DNA of 32,286 bases from the NCBI GenBank assembly GCA_945869855.1, contig CAMBQC010000012.1:1-32286 (forward strand). The letters are read 5' to 3'. Positions 1,710-12,671 of this stretch are shown one piece after another (within the stretch, counting starts at the first letter, position 1; each line of letters opens with the position of its first letter). Source of the stretch: Prosthecobacter debontii. GTDB lineage: Bacteria > Verrucomicrobiota > Verrucomicrobiia > Verrucomicrobiales > Akkermansiaceae. The notes beneath the pieces were generated by a model. It was not told the DNA's origin. It made no database searches and saw only the letters and a list, made by a program, of their open reading frames with translations. A program made the position numbers and the translations under genes.

Positions 1710-1803
1710 ATTTCTTTATCCATGCTTGCTGCCGCGATGACAAGCACGGACTCCCCGCGTTTTCGCGGTTGTAAAAATCGGACTCAGCCATTCTGATGAT
1801 GGC

Positions 1804-3366
1804 ATGCCGAGCGCGCGGAAAAAGAACATCCTTCCCTCCGCCGATCCGGCGTCATTGCTCACCGCGTTACACATCGGCGCGAGTTCCGTATCCATCATCA
1901 TCGCGGAGCGCGATTCGGAGGGGAACCCCACACCCATCGATTTCTTAGAGCAGCCCGCGCCGCTCGCGCAGGATGTTTTCGGTGGCAATGTCGTCTCCAA
2001 CGCGACCACCGAGCGCATCGTTTTCATCATCCGCGGTTATCAGGAAACGCTTTCGGAAATGGGCCTCGACCCACATAACCTTACCCGCGCCGTCGCCACC
2101 AATGTCCTTCACGAGGCCGCGAACCACGAGTCTGTCCTCAACCGCATCCGCATCGCCTGCGGACTGCCCGTTTCCATGATCGACGATGGCGAAATGACCC
2201 GCCTCATCTACCTTAAGACCCGCCGCCGCCTCCAGCACCTTCCGGCCATGACGCGGCGCACCGCGCTCGTCGTCCACGTCGGCCCCGGCAACACCCGCGC
2301 CCTGCTTTTCCACGAAGGCCTGATCACCCGTTACACCAGCTACCGCATGGGCACGCACCGCACCCGCGAGGCGGTCGAGGCCTCACATGCCGAAGGCCCT
2401 GCTCTCCTCCGCGTGATCCGTGAACACGCCTCGGGAAATCTCGCCCAGCTCCGCTTCGATTTCTCCGATGTGTCCATCGAAGGCATCATCCTCATCGGCT
2501 ACGAGATCCAGTCCGTCTCCTCTTTCCTCACGAAAAACAACGAGGCGTGCTCGCTCAAGGATTTCCGGAAATTCACCGCCGAAACCGCCATCCTCAGCGA
2601 TCTCGGCACGGTGAAACGCTTCCAGCTCGATTACCAGACGGCCGAGGCGCTGATCCCTGCCTTGGAGATCAATCTCGCCATCGCCGAGGCGCTCGGGATG
2701 AAGGAAGTCCACATCCCCAACTCAGACTACGAGCAAGGCCTGCTGCACGATCTCCTTGTTTCCCGCGAGATGAGCGGCTCCTTCGCCTCCGAGGTGCTGC
2801 GCTCCGCCCGCATCCTCGCCGAGCGCTACCAATCCGATCCCGGCCACGGCGAGCATGTCGGGAAACTTTGCGCCCATTTCGTCACCAACCTCCAGGATCT
2901 CCACCACCTCACCGAGCACGACGCGCTGCTCCTCCAAGTCGCGGCCATCCTCCACGAGGTCGGAACCTATGTCAGCCCCCGCGCCCATCACAAGCACTCG
3001 GAATACATTATCCTGAACTCGGAAATCTTCGGGCTCGACCGCCTCGACGTTACCATCGTCGCCCTCGTTTCACGCTACCACCGCCACTCCGGCCCGAAGC
3101 TCGATCACCCCTCCTACGCCGCGCTCTCCACCGAGGATCGCATCCGCGTCTGCAAGCTCGCCGCCATCCTCCGCGTCGCCGATGCCCTCGAGCGCACCCA
3201 CGCCCAGCGCATTTCCAAGATCGAGATCCTCCGCACCCACGACAAGCTCCGCATCCGCCTCCCCGGCCTCAAGGACGCCGCCATCGAGCGCCTCGCCATG
3301 GACTCCAAGGCCGATCTCTTCGAGCAGGTCTTCGGCCTCACCGTCGTCATCGAGGAGGATAACTGA
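1804..3366 (+). CDS. Ppx/GppA-type exopolyphosphatase with C-terminal HD-like domain
   Basis: 520 aa; N-terminal ASKHA-like fold (LHIGASSVSIIIAE, LVVHVGPGNTRALLF), C-terminal LLLQVAAILHEVGTYVSPRAHHKHSEYIILNSE as in Ppx/GppA proteins. Confidence 0.85.
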   Translation: MPSARKKNILPSADPASLLTALHIGASSVSIIIAERDSEGNPTPIDFLEQPAPLAQDVFGGNVVSNATTERIVFIIRGYQETLSEMGLDPHNLTRAVATNVLHEAANHESVLNRIRIACGLPVSMIDDGEMTRLIYLKTRRRLQHLPAMTRRTALVVHVGPGNTRALLFHEGLITRYTSYRMGTHRTREAVEASHAEGPALLRVIREHASGNLAQLRFDFSDVSIEGIILIGYEIQSVSSFLTKNNEACSLKDFRKFTAETAILSDLGTVKRFQLDYQTAEALIPALEINLAIAEALGMKEVHIPNSDYEQGLLHDLLVSREMSGSFASEVLRSARILAERYQSDPGHGEHVGKLCAHFVTNLQDLHHLTEHDALLLQVAAILHEVGTYVSPRAHHKHSEYIILNSEIFGLDRLDVTIVALVSRYHRHSGPKLDHPSYAALSTEDRIRVCKLAAILRVADALERTHAQRISKIEILRTHDKLRIRLPGLKDAAIERLAMDSKADLFEQVFGLTVVIEEDN

Positions 3367-3403
3367 GCTTGAAAACGGAGTCCTTTTCCCCTATCCATAT
3401 CCC

Positions 3404-3637
3404 ATGACAGCCGCCGTGAAACATCTCGTGGAAGAAGCCCTGCGCCTCGCCCCGGAAGAGCGCGAAGAACTCGTGGAAACCCTCCGCAGCCACAGCGAGC
3501 CCGACGAGGAGTGGTCGAAAGAATGGGGCGAGGAGATCGGAAGGCGCGCCGAGGAAGTATTGAGCGGAAAATGCGAATGCATCTCCGCGGAAGAAGCTCA
3601 CCGGCGCGTGCGGCAGTCCCTCTCGGAAATCCGATGA
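3404..3637 (+). CDS. Putative addiction module component (antitoxin)
   Basis: 77 aa from internal ATG 3404: MTAAVKHLVEEALRLAPEEREELVETLRSH..., matches the style of the putative addiction module antitoxin family; ATGA overlap with the next ORF. Confidence 0.75.
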   Translation: MTAAVKHLVEEALRLAPEEREELVETLRSHSEPDEEWSKEWGEEIGRRAEEVLSGKCECISAEEAHRRVRQSLSEIR

Positions 3638-3939
3638 CAACGGATTTCCACAACGAGGCGCTCGCCGAATACCACAATTCCGCGGCATACTCCGAGAATA
3701 TGTTCGGCTTGGGGGAGGAATTCGTCCAAGCGGTGGAACATGCCATCGCCGCCATCTCATCGGAACCCAAACGCTACAAACCCGTTGGCGAAAATCTCCA
3801 TGACTTCCGCATGGAACGCTTCCCATACCACCTCTTTTACCTCCATCTCCTCGGCTCGGAACGCGTCACCATTCTCGCCGTCGCCCACACCTCCCGCCGC
3901 CCCAACTACTGGAAATCCCGCATCCCCCCACTTCCTTGA
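3634..3939 (+). CDS. RelE/ParE-family toxin
   Basis: 101 aa from ATG 3634: MTTDFHNEALAEYHNSAAYSENMFGLGEEFVQAVEHAIAAISSEPKRYKPVGENLHDFRMERFPYHLFYLHL...VAHTSRRPNYW; typical RelE/ParE pattern, overlaps the antitoxin stop by 4 nt. Confidence 0.85.
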   Translation: MTTDFHNEALAEYHNSAAYSENMFGLGEEFVQAVEHAIAAISSEPKRYKPVGENLHDFRMERFPYHLFYLHLLGSERVTILAVAHTSRRPNYWKSRIPPLP

Positions 3940-3966
3940 GTTTTGAAATTTAAAATTTAAAGTTTT

Positions 3967-6057
3967 ATGTCCCCATACCACAACCGCGAACTCTCCTGGC
4001 TCGAATTCAACCAGCGCGTCCTCGCTCAGGCCTTCCGCGATGACCTGCCGCTGCTGGAACGCGTGAAATTCCTCGCCATATCCGCCAGCAACCTCGACGA
4101 GTTTTTCCAGGTCCGCGTCGGTTCCCTGATGCTGTTGCGCCGTAGCGGTCGGAAAACCCGGGACAACTCCGGCTACACCCCCGCGCGCAACCTCACCGCC
4201 ATCCGCGAGCGCGTTTTGAAAATGAACGCGGACCAATACGGACTCCTCAACGGCACCCTGCTCCCCACACTCGCGGAAAAGGGCATTGTCCTCCTCTCCG
4301 CCGCGCAACTCACCGATGCCCAGCGCGCCCAGACCGCCATCGCTTTCGACGACAACATCTCGCCGCTGCTCACGCCGCTCGCCGTCGATCCCGACTCCGC
4401 CCCCCCCATCGTCCCCGCGCTCCAGATCGTCCTCGCCTGCACCCTCCACGATCCGGTGGCAAAAGCCTCGCGCCACGTCCTCATCCCCATCCCCGAGAAC
4501 CTGCCGCGCCGCATTCCCATCTCCACCGATGACGAAACGACCGCCTTCCTAGTCATCGAGGATCTCATCGCCACCCATGCCGAGCGGCTTTTTCCTGGCG
4601 AGAACATCACCGCCACCACCGCCTTCCGCGTCACCCGCAACGGCGACATCGCCGTCCAGGAAGAGGATGCCACCGACCTCGCCGATGAAATGGAGGACGT
4701 CCTCACCGCCCGCCGTTTCGCCGACACAGTCCGCCTGGAAATCCGCGCCGACGCCCCGCGCGACCTCTCCTCACTCATCCAGAAGGTCACCGCCTCCTCC
4801 CCGCAGGAAATCTACCGCCACGCGGGCCCACTCGGCCTTTCGTCCTTTATGGAGCTCGCCTTTCTCCCTGATCACGACCACCTCCGCGATGAGGATTGGC
4901 CCGCGCAGAACTCGCCCTCGATCGCTCCCGGCGCCTCCATGTTCGAGACGATCGCCGCCGGCGACGTTCTGCTTTTCCACCCCTACGAATCCTTCGATCC
5001 CGTCATCCGCCTCATCGAGGAAGCCGCCGCCGATCCCGATGTCATCGCGATCAAGCAGATCCTCTACCGCACCGCTCGCCAGTCCCGCATCATCGACGCC
5101 CTCATCCGCGCGGCGGAAAATGGCAAGCACGTCACCGCACTCGTCGAGCTCAAGGCCCGCTTCGATGAGGCGCGCAACCTCAACCGCGCCGATGAACTCC
5201 AGCGCGCCGGCGCCCAGATCGTCTATGGCGTGAAAAACCTCAAGACCCACGCCAAGATCTGCCTCGTCCTCCGCCGAGAGTCCGGCCACATCCGCCGCTA
5301 CGTCCACCTCGGCACCGGCAACTACAACGAGACCACCTCCCGCCTTTACACCGATCTCTCCTACCTCACCTGCAAGTCGGAGTACGGAAACGACGCCTCC
5401 CTCCTCTTCAACGCCGTCACCGGCCGCTCGAAGCTTCTCCGCTTCCAGCGGCTCATCCCCGCCCCATCCGCGATGAAGCCCCGCCTTCTCGATCTCATCG
5501 CCGGCGAGGCCGAGCGCGCGAAGCAAGGCCTACCCGCGAAAATCATCGCCAAAACCAACTCACTCCAAGATCCAGACATCATCGCCGCCCTCTATGCTGC
5601 CTCCCAAGCCGGCGTCGAGATCAAGCTTAACGTCCGCGGGATCTGTTGCCTCATTCCTGGGGAGAAATTCTCGAAAAATATCGAGGTTTTTTCCGTCATA
5701 GACCGCTACCTCGAGCACGCTCGGCTCTTCTATTTCCACCAAGGCGGCGACCCCTTGGTCTTCATCGCTTCCGCCGACTGGATGACGAGAAATCTTGAAA
5801 AACGCGTCGAGCTGATGATCCCCATCGAGGAAAAAACAATCAAACGCCGCCTCATTAAAATTCTCGAAACCTATTTCAACGACAACCGCAATGCCTGGCG
5901 CATCCTTCGCGACGGCAGCTCCACCCCCGTTGTCCCCGCCAAAGGCGAAAAGCCCTTCCGCGCCCAAGAATCCTTCCACCAGCAATCCCGCCGTGCCGCC
6001 AAAGCCCGCGAGCATGAACGCTCCATGACCTTCGAACCCCACGTCCCGCAGGTTTGA
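3967..6057 (+). CDS. ppk1: Polyphosphate kinase 1
   Basis: 696 aa; NRELSWLEFNQRVL, SNLDEFFQVRVG, LLFHPYESFDPVIRLIEEAAADPDVIAIKQILYRT, KTHAKICLVLRRE, HLGTGNYNETTSRLYTDLSYLT. Confidence 0.97.
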   Translation: MSPYHNRELSWLEFNQRVLAQAFRDDLPLLERVKFLAISASNLDEFFQVRVGSLMLLRRSGRKTRDNSGYTPARNLTAIRERVLKMNADQYGLLNGTLLPTLAEKGIVLLSAAQLTDAQRAQTAIAFDDNISPLLTPLAVDPDSAPPIVPALQIVLACTLHDPVAKASRHVLIPIPENLPRRIPISTDDETTAFLVIEDLIATHAERLFPGENITATTAFRVTRNGDIAVQEEDATDLADEMEDVLTARRFADTVRLEIRADAPRDLSSLIQKVTASSPQEIYRHAGPLGLSSFMELAFLPDHDHLRDEDWPAQNSPSIAPGASMFETIAAGDVLLFHPYESFDPVIRLIEEAAADPDVIAIKQILYRTARQSRIIDALIRAAENGKHVTALVELKARFDEARNLNRADELQRAGAQIVYGVKNLKTHAKICLVLRRESGHIRRYVHLGTGNYNETTSRLYTDLSYLTCKSEYGNDASLLFNAVTGRSKLLRFQRLIPAPSAMKPRLLDLIAGEAERAKQGLPAKIIAKTNSLQDPDIIAALYAASQAGVEIKLNVRGICCLIPGEKFSKNIEVFSVIDRYLEHARLFYFHQGGDPLVFIASADWMTRNLEKRVELMIPIEEKTIKRRLIKILETYFNDNRNAWRILRDGSSTPVVPAKGEKPFRAQESFHQQSRRAAKAREHERSMTFEPHVPQV

Positions 6058-7390: not shown

Positions 7391-10300
7391 ATGTCCCGTT
7401 CTCCCGCAACCTTCCGCATTTTCACCGCATTCTGCCTCGCCGTCTTCATCGGGGCACTGGTCTGGATCGGTTTTCGCGATCCTGCGCCCACTCTCACCAT
7501 CCCAAGCACTCCTGCGCCGACCGCCGTAAAGCTGACCGTCGAGACTCCGGAAACCGTCAGCTTCAACGCCCACATCCGCCCCATCCTCTCGGACAAGTGC
7601 TTTGCCTGCCATGGCTTCGACTCCACTACCCGCGAGGAAAACCTCCGACTCGACACCGCCGAGGGTGCTTACGCCGCGCTCGAGAGTGATGCCAAGAAAC
7701 ACGCCATTGTTCCCGGAAAAACGGCGGAGAGCATCGCTTGGCAGCGCATCCACGACATAGAGGATCCCATGCCACCGGAGGATTTCCACAAACCCCTTTC
7801 CAAAGAGGAAAAAAACCTCATCACCCGCTGGATCGAGCAGGGCGCTGAATACCAAGAGCACTGGGCCTTCGCCGCTATCGCAAAACCCGCCATACCCGAA
7901 TCGGACACGAAAAACCCCATCGACGCTTTCGTCCGTGCGAACCTCGTCAAGCACGGCCTGAAACCCTCCCCGCCTGCCGATAAGGCCACTTTACTTCGCC
8001 GTCTTTCACTCGACCTCACTGGCCTCCCGCCGACGCCGGTGGAACTCCAAGCTTACCTATCCGACGAATCCACCGACGCCTACGTAAAACAGGTGGATCG
8101 CCTGCTCGCCTCCCCTCGCTACGGCGAGCGCATGGCTGTCACTTGGCTCGACGCCGTCCGTTACGCCGATTCCGTCGGCTATCACGGCGACCAGAACGCC
8201 CGCATCTTCCCGTTCCGCGACTACGTGATCGACTCCTTCAACGCGAACAAGCCCTTCGACCAGTTCACCCGCGAACAGCTCGCCGGCGACCTCATGCCGG
8301 ACGCGACCGAGGAACAGAAAATCGCCACCGGTTTCCTGCGCCTGAACCTGATGACCCGCGAGGGCGGCGCGCAGGACAAGGAATACCTCGCCAAATATGC
8401 CGGCGACCGAGTCCGTGCCATCGGCGGCGCATGGCTCGGCCTCACCACCGGCTGCGCCGAGTGCCACGACCACAAGTTCGACCCCTTCACCGCCAAGGAT
8501 TTCTATTCGCTGGCCGCCTTCTTCAACGACGTCCGCCAGTGGGGCATCTACACGACCTACGGCAACACCCCGAACAAGGATCTGCCCGGCTTCAACAACG
8601 AATCGCCTTTCCCGCCCGAAATCTTCGCAAAAAACCGCGCCGTCCAGCAAAGCCTGGAAACCGCGCGCGAAGCCACCCTCGCCGCCGTGAAAGGCATGCC
8701 CTACGATGCCGCCGCGCTGGAGGCATGGCGCAAATCCGCAGCCGCGTTCCTCACCGCGAACCGCGACGGCTGGCTCCCGCTCAAAGCCACCGCCATCACC
8801 CGTGGCGGTGCGAACCAACCCTCGCAGGCGGCCGACGGTTCCATCCTCATCACCGGCGCGCCGGAAAAGGAAACCATCACCGTCACCTACGCGCTGCCCC
8901 CCGGGATTCCCCTTAAAACCCTCCGCCTGGAGGTTCTTCCGGACGCCGCTAACAGGAACAGCGTCGGCCGCCAGCCGAACGGCAAGTTCACCGCGATCCC
9001 GACATTCGCGATCAACGCCGAAAAACTAGGTTTCTCGTACCAACAAGCCGACCGCCGCACGCCCGCGAGGTATAGCAACGGCTACCAAGCCCCGACACTG
9101 GAGGAAACCTGGCAATCCGCCCCGGCGATTTTCGAGGAACCGTCCAACGCCGCGAGCCTGCCCCACCACGCCCATTACCACCTCAAGCAATCCGTTTCCC
9201 CCGCGGAGAACGCCACGCTCACCCTAACCCTCGCGTCCGCCGACATCGGGAAATTCCGCCTCAGCATCAGCCCCTTCGCCGATCCCATACCCGGCGAGCA
9301 AACCGCCCTGCGTTCCGCGCTCGCCTCCGCTTTCAACACGGACAACACTTTCCATCCCGAGATCGAGGCCGCTTTCCTCCTCGCCAACACGGCGGATGAC
9401 AAGCTCCCCGCCGCCTACAAGGAAGCCCGCGCCGACATGCTCGCCGCCCACGCCGGTTACGCCCACTCGATGATCGCGCAAACCCTGCCGCCCGATCAAA
9501 TCCCGCAGGCGCACATACTGCCTCGCGGCGATTGGATGAATCCCGCCGAGAAAGTGGAGCCCGCTTTCCCCGCCTTCCTCGCGAAGGACGGCGCGCCCGC
9601 CGGGAAGCGTCTCAACCGCATGGATCTCGCCGAGTGGCTACTCGCACCGAAGAACCCGCTCACCTCCCGCCATTTCTCCAACCGCCTGTGGAAGCAGTTC
9701 TTCGGCAAAGGGTTATCCAACATCCTCGACGACCTCGGCAACCAGGGCGAGTGGCCTTCTCACCCGGAGCTCATCGACTGGCTCGCTTCCGAGTTCCAAT
9801 CCTCCGACTGGGACGTGAAACACATGGTGCGCCTCCTCGTCACCTCGGAAACCTACCGCCAGGTCTCCGCCGCGAACCCCGATCTCGCTGAGATCGACCC
9901 TGACAACCGCCTGCTTTCCGAGCAATCGGCGCGCCGCCTCGAGGCCGAGTTCGTCCGCGACAACGCCCTCGCCATCGCCGGCCTCCTCCGCGCTGACGAG
10001 GTCGGCGGCCCGTCCATCCGCCCCTACCAAGCCGAGGATTTCTGGGCGAACCTCAATTTCCCTGAGCGGAAATACCTCTCCTCGAAAGGCTCCGACCAAT
10101 ACCGCCGCGGCCTCTACGTTCACTGGCAGCGCACCTTCATCCATCCGATGATGGCCGCCTTCGACGCACCCTCCCGCGAAGAGTGTGCCGTGGACCGTTT
10201 CCCATCGAACTCGCCGCAGCAGGCGCTCGCCCTCCTCAATGACCCCACCTTCGTCGAAGCCGCAAAAGCCCTCGCCGCCCGCCTCGAATCCGAGCCGACC

Positions 10301-10480
10301 GATGCCGACAAGATCAACCGAGCCTACCTCCTCGCCCTTTCCCGCGATCCGAGCGCCGGTGAAAGGAAAAACCTAATCGCCTTCCTCGAAAAGCTCCGCA
10401 AGGAACTTCCTGATGCCAACCCCACGGAGCAGCTCTGCCGCGTCATCCTCAACCTCCACGAAACGATCACGAGGTTTTGA
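7391..10480 (+). CDS. PSCyt1/DUF1549/DUF1553 domain protein (planctomycete-type cytochrome c domain)
   Basis: 1029 aa; FNAHIRPILSDKCFACHGFD haem motif, DLTGLPPTPVE, TTGCAECHDHKFDPF, SRHFSNRLWKQFFGKGL. Confidence 0.93.
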   Translation: MSRSPATFRIFTAFCLAVFIGALVWIGFRDPAPTLTIPSTPAPTAVKLTVETPETVSFNAHIRPILSDKCFACHGFDSTTREENLRLDTAEGAYAALESDAKKHAIVPGKTAESIAWQRIHDIEDPMPPEDFHKPLSKEEKNLITRWIEQGAEYQEHWAFAAIAKPAIPESDTKNPIDAFVRANLVKHGLKPSPPADKATLLRRLSLDLTGLPPTPVELQAYLSDESTDAYVKQVDRLLASPRYGERMAVTWLDAVRYADSVGYHGDQNARIFPFRDYVIDSFNANKPFDQFTREQLAGDLMPDATEEQKIATGFLRLNLMTREGGAQDKEYLAKYAGDRVRAIGGAWLGLTTGCAECHDHKFDPFTAKDFYSLAAFFNDVRQWGIYTTYGNTPNKDLPGFNNESPFPPEIFAKNRAVQQSLETAREATLAAVKGMPYDAAALEAWRKSAAAFLTANRDGWLPLKATAITRGGANQPSQAADGSILITGAPEKETITVTYALPPGIPLKTLRLEVLPDAANRNSVGRQPNGKFTAIPTFAINAEKLGFSYQQADRRTPARYSNGYQAPTLEETWQSAPAIFEEPSNAASLPHHAHYHLKQSVSPAENATLTLTLASADIGKFRLSISPFADPIPGEQTALRSALASAFNTDNTFHPEIEAAFLLANTADDKLPAAYKEARADMLAAHAGYAHSMIAQTLPPDQIPQAHILPRGDWMNPAEKVEPAFPAFLAKDGAPAGKRLNRMDLAEWLLAPKNPLTSRHFSNRLWKQFFGKGLSNILDDLGNQGEWPSHPELIDWLASEFQSSDWDVKHMVRLLVTSETYRQVSAANPDLAEIDPDNRLLSEQSARRLEAEFVRDNALAIAGLLRADEVGGPSIRPYQAEDFWANLNFPERKYLSSKGSDQYRRGLYVHWQRTFIHPMMAAFDAPSREECAVDRFPSNSPQQALALLNDPTFVEAAKALAARLESEPTDADKINRAYLLALSRDPSAGERKNLIAFLEKLRKELPDANPTEQLCRVILNLHETITRF

Positions 10481-10500
10481 AGAGGAGGGGGTGAGGGAGA
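10479..10500 (+). repeat. Left arm of inverted repeat flanking the four-helix-bundle gene
   Basis: GAAGAGGAGGGGGTGAGGGAGA; the first 19 nt are the exact reverse complement of 10927..10945 (21/22 over the extended arm). Confidence 0.9.
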
Positions 10501-10515
10501 GAGTGGGGGAGGGGG
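10487..10515 (+). promoter_or_regulatory. Canonical G-quadruplex motif (sense strand)
   Basis: GGGGG-TGA-GGG-AGAGAGT-GGGGG-A-GGGGG; four G-runs >=3 with loops of 3, 7 and 1 nt. Confidence 0.65.
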
Positions 10516-10537
10516 AGATGGAAAATGAGCAACCAAG

Positions 10538-10921
10538 ATGAGAATCAGCCGACATACTGAACTGGAAGTCTTTAAGAAGGGCTTCTCTGCCGCCATGGAG
10601 ATCTTCCGGATCAGCTCGGCCTTCCCCAAGGAAGAGCGCTATTCGCTCACCGATCAGGTGCGGCGCTCCTCGAGATCGGTTTGCGCGAACCTCACGGAAG
10701 CATGGAGAAAGCGCCGCTACCCCGCCGCCTTCGTGGCCAAGCTCTCCGATGCCGAAGCCGAAGCCGCAGAGACGCAGACATGGATCCAATTCGCGGTGGA
10801 ATGCGGCTACATCGAACGTGAGTCCGCCAAGGTTCTCTACGCCGAATATGATGCCATCCTAGGCATGCTCGTCCGCATGATCTCCGATCCCAACTCCTGG
10901 ATCATTACGCCGCAAAAGTAA
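10538..10921 (+). CDS. Four helix bundle protein (23S rRNA-intervening sequence protein family)
   Basis: 127 aa; LEVFKKGFSAAMEIFRISSAFPKEERYSLTDQVRRSSRSVCANLTEAWRKRRYPAAFVAKLSDAEAEAAETQTWIQFAVECGYI is the characteristic pattern of this family. Confidence 0.93.
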   Translation: MRISRHTELEVFKKGFSAAMEIFRISSAFPKEERYSLTDQVRRSSRSVCANLTEAWRKRRYPAAFVAKLSDAEAEAAETQTWIQFAVECGYIERESAKVLYAEYDAILGMLVRMISDPNSWIITPQK

Positions 10922-10923
10922 TA

Positions 10924-10945
10924 TCCCCCTCACCCCCTCCTCTTC
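10924..10945 (-). repeat. Right arm of inverted repeat flanking the four-helix-bundle gene
   Basis: TCCCCCTCACCCCCTCCTCTTC; 10927..10945 is the exact reverse complement of 10479..10497. Confidence 0.9.
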
Positions 10946-10948
10946 CCC

Positions 10949-12367
10949 ATGAACCACCATCACCTCCACAACGTCCTCCAGAACGACTGGTCGCGCCGGA
11001 CGTTCCTGAAAAAATCCTTCGCCGGTCTCGGCGGGATCGCGCTCTCGCAGTTCGCGGGTGCATCCCTGCCACGCCTCCACGAGCAGGGCGGACTCCACTT
11101 TCCCGCGAAGGCGAAACGCGTGATCCACCTCTGCATGGCCGGCGGTCCCTCGCATTTGGAATCGTTCGATCCGAAGGCGGAGCTGAACAAGCTCAACGGC
11201 CAGCCTTTCCCGGAATCGTTTACCAAAGGCCAGCAGCTCGCCCAGCTCCAGGGTGCTAAGCTTGTCGCCCGCGGCTCCTTCACAGGCTTCAAGAAATACG
11301 GCCAAGCGGGCATCGAGATTTCCGACCTTTTCCCCTACACTGGTGCGATCGCGGACGAGATCTGCGTCGTCCGCTCCATGGTTACCGAGCAGATCAACCA
11401 CGACCCCGCCCACGCCTTCATGAACTCTGGCTCCATCCTCAAGGGTCGCCCCAGCATGGGTTCGTGGCTGCTCTACGGCCTCGGCGCGGATTCGCAGAAC
11501 CTGCCCGGATACGTAGTCATGGTGTCGAGGGGTGATTTCCCGGATCAGCCGATCTCCTCCCGGCAATGGTCGGCGGGCTTCCTGCCATCTCGTTTCCAAG
11601 GCGTTCAGTTCCAGTCAAAAGGCGATGCCGTCCACTACGTCGGCAGCCCGGAGGGTGTCTGCCAATCCGCGCAGCGGCAGGTCATCGAGGAAGTCCAGCG
11701 CCTCAATGGTATGCTTCGCGAGCACCACTACGATCCTGAAATCGAGACCCGCATCGCGCAGTATGAAATGGCCTTCCGCATGCAATCCTCTGTGCCGGAA
11801 CTCACCGACATGAAAGGCGAGCCGCAGCACATCCTCGACATGTACGGCGTGAAAGAAGCCGGCGACGGCTCCTTCGCCTCGAACTGCCTGCTCGCCCGCC
11901 GCATGCTGGAGCGCGGCGTCCGTTTCGTGCAGCTCTACCACCGCGGCTGGGATCACCACGGCAACATCGACAAACAAATGCCCTACACCGCGAAGCTCAC
12001 CGATCAAGCCTCCGCCGCCCTCGTGAAAGACCTGAAACAACGCGGGATGCTCGAGGACACGCTCGTGATCTGGGGCGGCGAGTTCGGCCGCACGCCCATG
12101 GGCCAGGGCACCGGCCGCGACCACCACATCAAGGCCTTTTCCATCTGGATGGCCGGCGCGGGCATCAAGCCAGGTCACGTCCACGGCGCCACCGACGAGC
12201 TGGGCTACGCTGCTGTTGAAGACGTCGTCCATGTCCGCGACCTTCACGCTACTCTGTTGGAACGGTTCGGCATCGACCATGCCCGTTTCACCAAGAAATT
12301 CCAGGGCCTCGACTACAAGCTCACCGGCGTCGAACCCGCGAAACCCATCAAGGCCATCCTCGCATGA
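10949..12367 (+). CDS. DUF1501 domain-containing protein, Tat signal
   Basis: 472 aa; WSRRTFLKKSFAGLGGIALSQFAG Tat motif; HLCMAGGPSHLESFDPK; WGGEFGRTPMGQGTGRDHH. Confidence 0.95.
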   Translation: MNHHHLHNVLQNDWSRRTFLKKSFAGLGGIALSQFAGASLPRLHEQGGLHFPAKAKRVIHLCMAGGPSHLESFDPKAELNKLNGQPFPESFTKGQQLAQLQGAKLVARGSFTGFKKYGQAGIEISDLFPYTGAIADEICVVRSMVTEQINHDPAHAFMNSGSILKGRPSMGSWLLYGLGADSQNLPGYVVMVSRGDFPDQPISSRQWSAGFLPSRFQGVQFQSKGDAVHYVGSPEGVCQSAQRQVIEEVQRLNGMLREHHYDPEIETRIAQYEMAFRMQSSVPELTDMKGEPQHILDMYGVKEAGDGSFASNCLLARRMLERGVRFVQLYHRGWDHHGNIDKQMPYTAKLTDQASAALVKDLKQRGMLEDTLVIWGGEFGRTPMGQGTGRDHHIKAFSIWMAGAGIKPGHVHGATDELGYAAVEDVVHVRDLHATLLERFGIDHARFTKKFQGLDYKLTGVEPAKPIKAILA

Positions 12368-12421
12368 GATCGTAGGTGGTCTTCGCCGAGCAGGTTCACA
12401 CGCCACTCAGTTAGGCTGGTC

Positions 12422-12645
12422 GCCAAAAGTCCGTGGGCGAAAAGGTGACAACAAAGTAAAGTGCGCCGCAGGCTCTGGACTGCTGTGATTTTTCATTCAC
12501 AGCTCTCAAGGGCGGCTTTGTTTTGCGGGACAACGGGTTGCTACCGAGTTACTTCGTTTTTCCATCTCGAATCCAAAAAACGGCGGATGAGAACCGCCGC
12601 AGTCAAAAGCCTCCGGCGGCATGGATCTGCGCACGGACTTTTGGC
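12422..12645. repeat. ~224-bp intergenic element with 14-bp terminal inverted repeats and nested stems
   Basis: GCCAAAAGTCCGTG (12422..12435) is the exact reverse complement of CACGGACTTTTGGC (12632..12645); 12464..12483 pairs with 12599..12618 at 17/20; hairpins at 12482..12503 and 12581..12599. Confidence 0.75.
12575..12599 (-). terminator. Rho-independent-like terminator for recG (minus strand)
   Basis: Minus strand reads CGGCGG-TTCTCAT-CCGCCG-TTTTTT, about 75 nt downstream of the recG stop. Confidence 0.75.
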
Positions 12646-12671
12646 AAATGGTCTAATTGAGAGGTGAGTGC

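Follow-up and report, generated by a model that had tools for sequence, protein, structure and literature searches.

In Prosthecobacter debontii a small gene of the PF05635 family (IVP, or S23) takes up all the space between a gene with PSCyt1, PSCyt2 and PSD1 domains and the DUF1501 gene that follows it; the family is known chiefly from insertions in rRNA genes, where its members have been described (PMC4990558, PMC11270868). The locus raises the question of whether such a gene, enclosed by inverted ends and standing between protein-coding genes, is an inserted element or a resident of the operon. We addressed this question in a window of 32,286 nt (the whole stretch of DNA analysed, contig CAMBQC010000012.1), in the window genome and its relatives, and in named genomes from many phyla. 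The features of the locus are as follows.

7391..10480, + strand: upstream host gene, PSCyt1-PSCyt2-PSD1 (profile search)
10479..10500, + strand: left (5') arm, pairing with the right arm without mismatch over its first 19 nt (inverted-repeat search, shuffles)
10479..10520, + strand: left array of degenerate 8-mers, rich in purines, that overlaps the upstream stop codon (sequence; homologues)
10538..10921, + strand: IVP gene, PF05635/TIGR02436, four-helix bundle of 127 aa (profiles, AF2, PDB matches)
10924..10945, + strand: right (3') arm, C-rich, ending 3 nt before the DUF1501 ATG (inverted-repeat search)
10949..12367, + strand: downstream host gene, DUF1501 (profiles; orthologues with and without the cassette)

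The original prediction had described a perfect 19-nt inverted repeat around the ORF at 10538–10921, with a left arm overlapping the upstream TGA and a right arm stopping 3 nt before the downstream ATG, and each of these details was recovered. The sequence GAAGAGGAGGGGGTGAGGG lies at 10479–10497 and its exact reverse complement CCCTCACCCCCTCCTCTTC at 10927–10945; the inverted pair reaches 22 nt at 95% (10479–10500 and 10924–10945) with an inter-arm distance of 423 nt, and the element has a total length of 467 bp. This was the longest exact inverted repeat in the window for loops of up to 1 kb, the runner-up having 14 nt, and dinucleotide shuffles of the element region gave inverted repeats of at most 11 nt. 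The arms were paired in the RNA fold predicted for the element (z = −5.0). The left arm also begins a purine-rich array of degenerate 8-mers (approximately 10479–10520), which the prediction had missed and whose array nature we deduced from the clearer arrays of homologues. No Rfam family matched at the element, and a search of the window genome for arm-only copies of the perfect core found none, the two perfect arm copies being the only ones. Elsewhere in the window, at 12404–12664, there is a 260-nt intergenic palindrome-like element with the arms CACTCAGTTAGGCTGGTCGCCAAAAGTCCGTG and CACGGACTTTTGGCAAATGGTCTAATTGAGAGGTG (fold z −6.15), of which four more near-complete copies (89–93% identity) and some shorter ones occur in the window genome; it appears to belong to a family of MITEs that is not related to the IVP cassette.

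The assignment of the ORF to the IVS-protein family was confirmed by profile searches (PF05635, E 5e-30, 104 bits with a cut-off of 33.8; TIGR02436, E 6e-28). The AlphaFold2 model of the protein is a four-helix bundle (pLDDT 93.8) that matches the PDB entries 2GSC and 2RLD, both of the S23 family, as well as Avd, a protein of diversity-generating retroelements (DGRs) (4DWL, TM 0.77/0.90). IVP genes have been described as relatives of Avd (PMC10053308). The bAvd Pfam match was weak and below its cut-off, and the Avd equivalog NF033474 scored 25.4 bits, below the cut-off of 80. The ORF is under purifying selection, with dN of 0.10–0.13 and a dS that is saturated or, at more than 1, near saturation.

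PF05635 genes were present in 55 of the 59 genomes searched, mostly in several copies each. To see how general the arms are, we took 68 such genes of the window genome and its relatives, picked by protein homology alone, scanned their flanks (350 nt per side) for inverted matches and called arms at a score of at least 13 (+1/−2), with other genes in the same regions as controls. Arms were detected around 84% of the IVP genes as against 1.7% of 537 control genes (Fisher p 8e-59); small control genes from the same regions gave 3.2% of 251. Some of the 68 loci are orthologous sites, so the independent cases are fewer, although the enrichment is far too large for this to matter. A second set, comprising 72 loci of named genomes from many phyla, showed arms at 58 loci and in none of 124 displaced control windows. 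The armed loci of this set belonged to Verrucomicrobiota, Planctomycetota, Chloroflexota, Cyanobacteria, Acidobacteriota, Armatimonadota, Nitrospirota and Thermodesulfobacteriota; arms in Pseudomonadota were seen in the plasmid set, and altogether no fewer than nine bacterial phyla carry the cassette, at sites unrelated to one another. The sole Bacteroidota locus sampled had an arm score below the threshold, approximately 16–20% of IVP homologues had no detectable arms, and a search for phage carriers found none. The expectation that other family members are flanked by inverted repeats was thus borne out in both sets. A chance arrangement or an assembly artefact is virtually excluded, being rejected by the gene controls, the displaced windows and the shuffles alike and by the repetition of the arrangement in independent genomes. 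Among single loci, that of Blastocatellia bacterium SSF51 (L149) carries 142-nt near-perfect inverted arrays at 2843–2984 and 3454–3595 around its IVP gene, composed of 8-mers of the GGGTGACA type (score 106). In the single-contig genome G041, four IVP homologues lie within about 11 kb (L069, 4895–16262), most of them with weak or absent arms.

Each arm is an array in which short 7- or 8-mers recur as direct repeats; the period is 7 in most subfamilies of the relatives and 8 in the window's own subfamily. Left arms are rich in G and poor in C: G exceeded C in 54 of 56 decided cases among the relatives and in all 58 of the multi-phylum set (112 of 114 together). The median element length was 475 nt. 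The left arm began a median of 6 nt past the stop codon of a co-directional upstream gene. From the end of the right arm, the median distance was 8 nt to the start of a co-directional gene and 0.5 nt to the stop of a convergent one. The arm ends thus adjoin the neighbouring stops and starts, and the element fills the whole gap. Upstream neighbours were co-directional in 58 of 65 cases, compared with 63% expected (p 4e-6).

The sequences of the arms follow the protein that they enclose. When each left arm was compared with 57 candidate right arms, the one from its own element ranked in the top three in 53 cases. Where no flank homology was detected between sites, the 5-mer overlap between arms rose from 0.06 for proteins of less than 40% identity to 0.42 for those of more than 70%, and arm similarity was associated with IVP identity at a permutation p of 5e-4, a statistic that still includes the pair L079/L089 and may include a few more whose flank homology escaped detection. 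The repeat unit thus follows the protein subfamily even across unrelated sites. Among orthologues at the metK site described below, own-arm pairing was stronger on average, yet best in only 4 of 9 rows. In four pairs of elements at unrelated sites (L061/L062, L039/L092, L046/L067 and L041/L085) DNA homology was limited to the ORF and the arms; it stopped at the arms, and the lack of conserved flanks at other sites is as predicted. The pair L079/L089 was rejected as a case of unrelated sites, since it proved to be one orthologous site, and was therefore not used as evidence of mobility.

Comparison of the same sites between genomes revealed filled, decayed and empty states. At the PSCyt1-DUF1501 junction the element was intact in the window genome and in G014 and, up to the contig end, in G001; it was decayed in G012 and G016, where internal deletions had left the arms, and absent from G010, G013, G044 and G040. 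The empty sites called for by the original prediction therefore exist, three of them with only 3–6 nt from stop to start and the fourth, in G040, with a longer element-free spacer. Between two genes presumed from their sequences to be metK and ahcY, the element was present at nine examined loci including that of the window genome, and decayed in G029. Many genomes lack it there, among them G005, which shares 99% identity with the window genome in its metK fragment. Between genes likewise presumed from their sequences to be yicC and radC, the window genome and G021 carry the element, G005 does not, and in G004 arm remnants without the ORF are left. No target-site duplication was visible when filled sites were compared with the empty ones of G044, G010, G013 and G005, in which the flanks have diverged. 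The occurrence of the cassette at unrelated sites and its absence from the same sites in close relatives point to a widespread, little-noticed inserted element.

The link to rRNA is provided by plasmid AZO_p2 of Azospirillum lipoferum, where a 23S rRNA gene (Rfam RF02541, positions 1792–4990 of locus L216, score 2693) contains an IVP homologue. This element measures 468 nt, compared with 467 nt in the window, and is bounded by TCAGAGGACGGATGACAGAGGACGGAGGAC and its near-perfect inverse, 30-nt inverted arms that form a G-rich array of period 7. The IVS of Coxiella likewise has a 28-bp stem and heptameric repeats before the S23p start, and is cleaved by RNase III in vitro (PMC4990558). With the ORF-bearing rRNA IVSs of the Coxiella and Leptospira type the window element shares its one PF05635 ORF, placed in a loop that inverted ends close, a size of about 430–470 nt, short tandem repeats upstream of the ORF and a sporadic presence with empty sites in relatives. 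It differs in standing between protein-coding genes of an operon and not in an rRNA helix, in that the repeat units of intergenic elements are diverse and linked to the protein subfamily, and in that RNase III excision is only presumed for it. Since it lies outside rRNA, the window element is not an rRNA IVS in the strict sense, whereas its AZO_p2 homologue lies within 23S rRNA. Intergenic elements and ORF-bearing rRNA IVSs have in common all the anatomy tested, and their difference is one of location.

Other known systems resemble the element less. Xanthomonas (GGGAATC, with 70 inverted pairs in Xcc) and Nostoc have arrays of G-rich 7-mers that often form close inverted intergenic pairs, although their description draws no link to IVP genes (PMC4692102); heptamer arrays have also been described on their own elsewhere (PMC4679880, PMC2700814). 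MITEs and REPINs are likewise small and intergenic, with inverted ends, and are apparently moved in trans, whereas IVP elements encode a conserved protein, their arms are variable 7/8-mer arrays, and the window element has only its two perfect arm copies in the genome. A classical IS or transposon would have a transposase between its ends, where here the IVP ORF stands alone.

We consider it likely that 10479–10945 is an IVS-type insertion element, made of inverted 7/8-mer arrays and one IVP (S23) gene, that belongs to the class of the ORF-bearing 23S IVSs and is placed between protein genes; its RNA steps and the role of its protein are ones that we infer. The proposal of an IVS-like cassette inserted in a protein operon is upheld by the empty sites, the armed relatives, the unconserved flanks elsewhere and the 23S rRNA homologue. 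In the transcript, the arms would form a long stem closing the IVP mRNA. RNase III would cut this stem and release the insert, leaving the flanking mRNAs or rRNA pieces usable, and such release would explain why insertions are tolerated in operons and in rRNA. The IVP, presumably a pentamer with the Avd fold, may recognise the arrays of its own subfamily and be required for the element to be maintained or to spread, while the host would provide catalysis in trans.

An excess of G.U over A.C mismatches in the arms, sought as a sign of selection on the sense RNA stem, was not found (22:45 and 50:44). Such selection is therefore not demonstrated, and correction of the inverted arms at the DNA level is a live alternative. 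The arms could be terminal inverted repeats that a host transposase or recombinase uses in trans as DNA, folded into a cruciform or a single-strand hairpin, with the IVP as an accessory and complementarity kept by template-switch (quasipalindrome) correction and slippage. The missing G.U excess, the joint change of both arms at orthologous sites and the Y1 transposases encoded by all but two of the 59 relatives fit this explanation; given that no target-site duplication is visible, that IVP and Y1 counts are not significantly correlated (rho 0.21, p 0.11) and that rRNA members are processed as RNA (PMC4990558), we regard it as somewhat unlikely. We give less credit to a retro-mobile element, in which a host reverse transcriptase, acting in trans, would make a DNA copy of the excised RNA hairpin with bound IVP, in the way that Avd helps the reverse transcription of DGRs. 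The model of the window IVP matches the four-helix bundle of Avd, and IVP and RVT_1 counts were weakly correlated (rho 0.27, p 0.04). As the original prediction noted, no reverse transcriptase gene lies nearby: the window contig has none, so that, going by such genes, no DGR was found on it, and the genome's single RVT_1 match is on C60. Moreover, RVT_1 was undetected in 18 of the 59 genomes, 16 of which still carry 1–9 IVP genes (seven in single-contig G041), which indicates that IVP genes do not require a resident reverse transcriptase to be present; dependence on one was not supported.

The element could also be a domesticated regulator. It would then be an operon gene that does not move, with a stem serving solely to keep two mRNAs apart or to autoregulate translation of the IVP, as the purifying selection on the ORF, the orthologous retention at PSCyt1-DUF1501 and metK-ahcY and the predominance of co-directional upstream genes would allow. 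Unrelated sites, rRNA and conjugative plasmids all harbour the same cassette, near relatives have empty and decayed copies, and there is no fixed partner gene, which makes this improbable. Returning to the IVS-type insertion element, we put forward, as a tentative extension, that IVP elements form a distinct cross-phylum minimal mobile class, in which one small Avd-fold protein would recognise its own inverted 7/8-mer arrays and need nothing beyond host enzymes to bring about insertion into short intergenic gaps and rRNA loops; the rRNA IVSs would be its first-noticed members and many G-rich heptamer arrays its products.

The S23/IVP family has lacked an assigned function ever since intervening sequences of 23S rRNA were first reported, and annotations label the protein ribosomal or rRNA-linked. 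No description of a class of IVP elements outside rRNA was found in the open-access literature, a scope that lends weak support to novelty. Eighteen IVP genes in cas loci, one of them between cmr3 and cmr2, have been read as CRISPR-linked (PMC3936711), and some of these may be inserted IVP elements. We also observed an IVP-like gene with no detectable arms directly after cas1-cas2 on plasmid pPg_04 of Pseudanabaena galeata (L217, 3001–3363). The IVP cassettes seen outside rRNA in the window genome and in the multi-phylum sample, bounded by arrays and with arms that track the protein, are grounds for another look at reports of IVP genes as parts of cas operons. Some G-rich heptamer arrays may have originated from IVP elements. 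The cassettes also make the function of IVP testable, beginning with whether it binds its own arrays.
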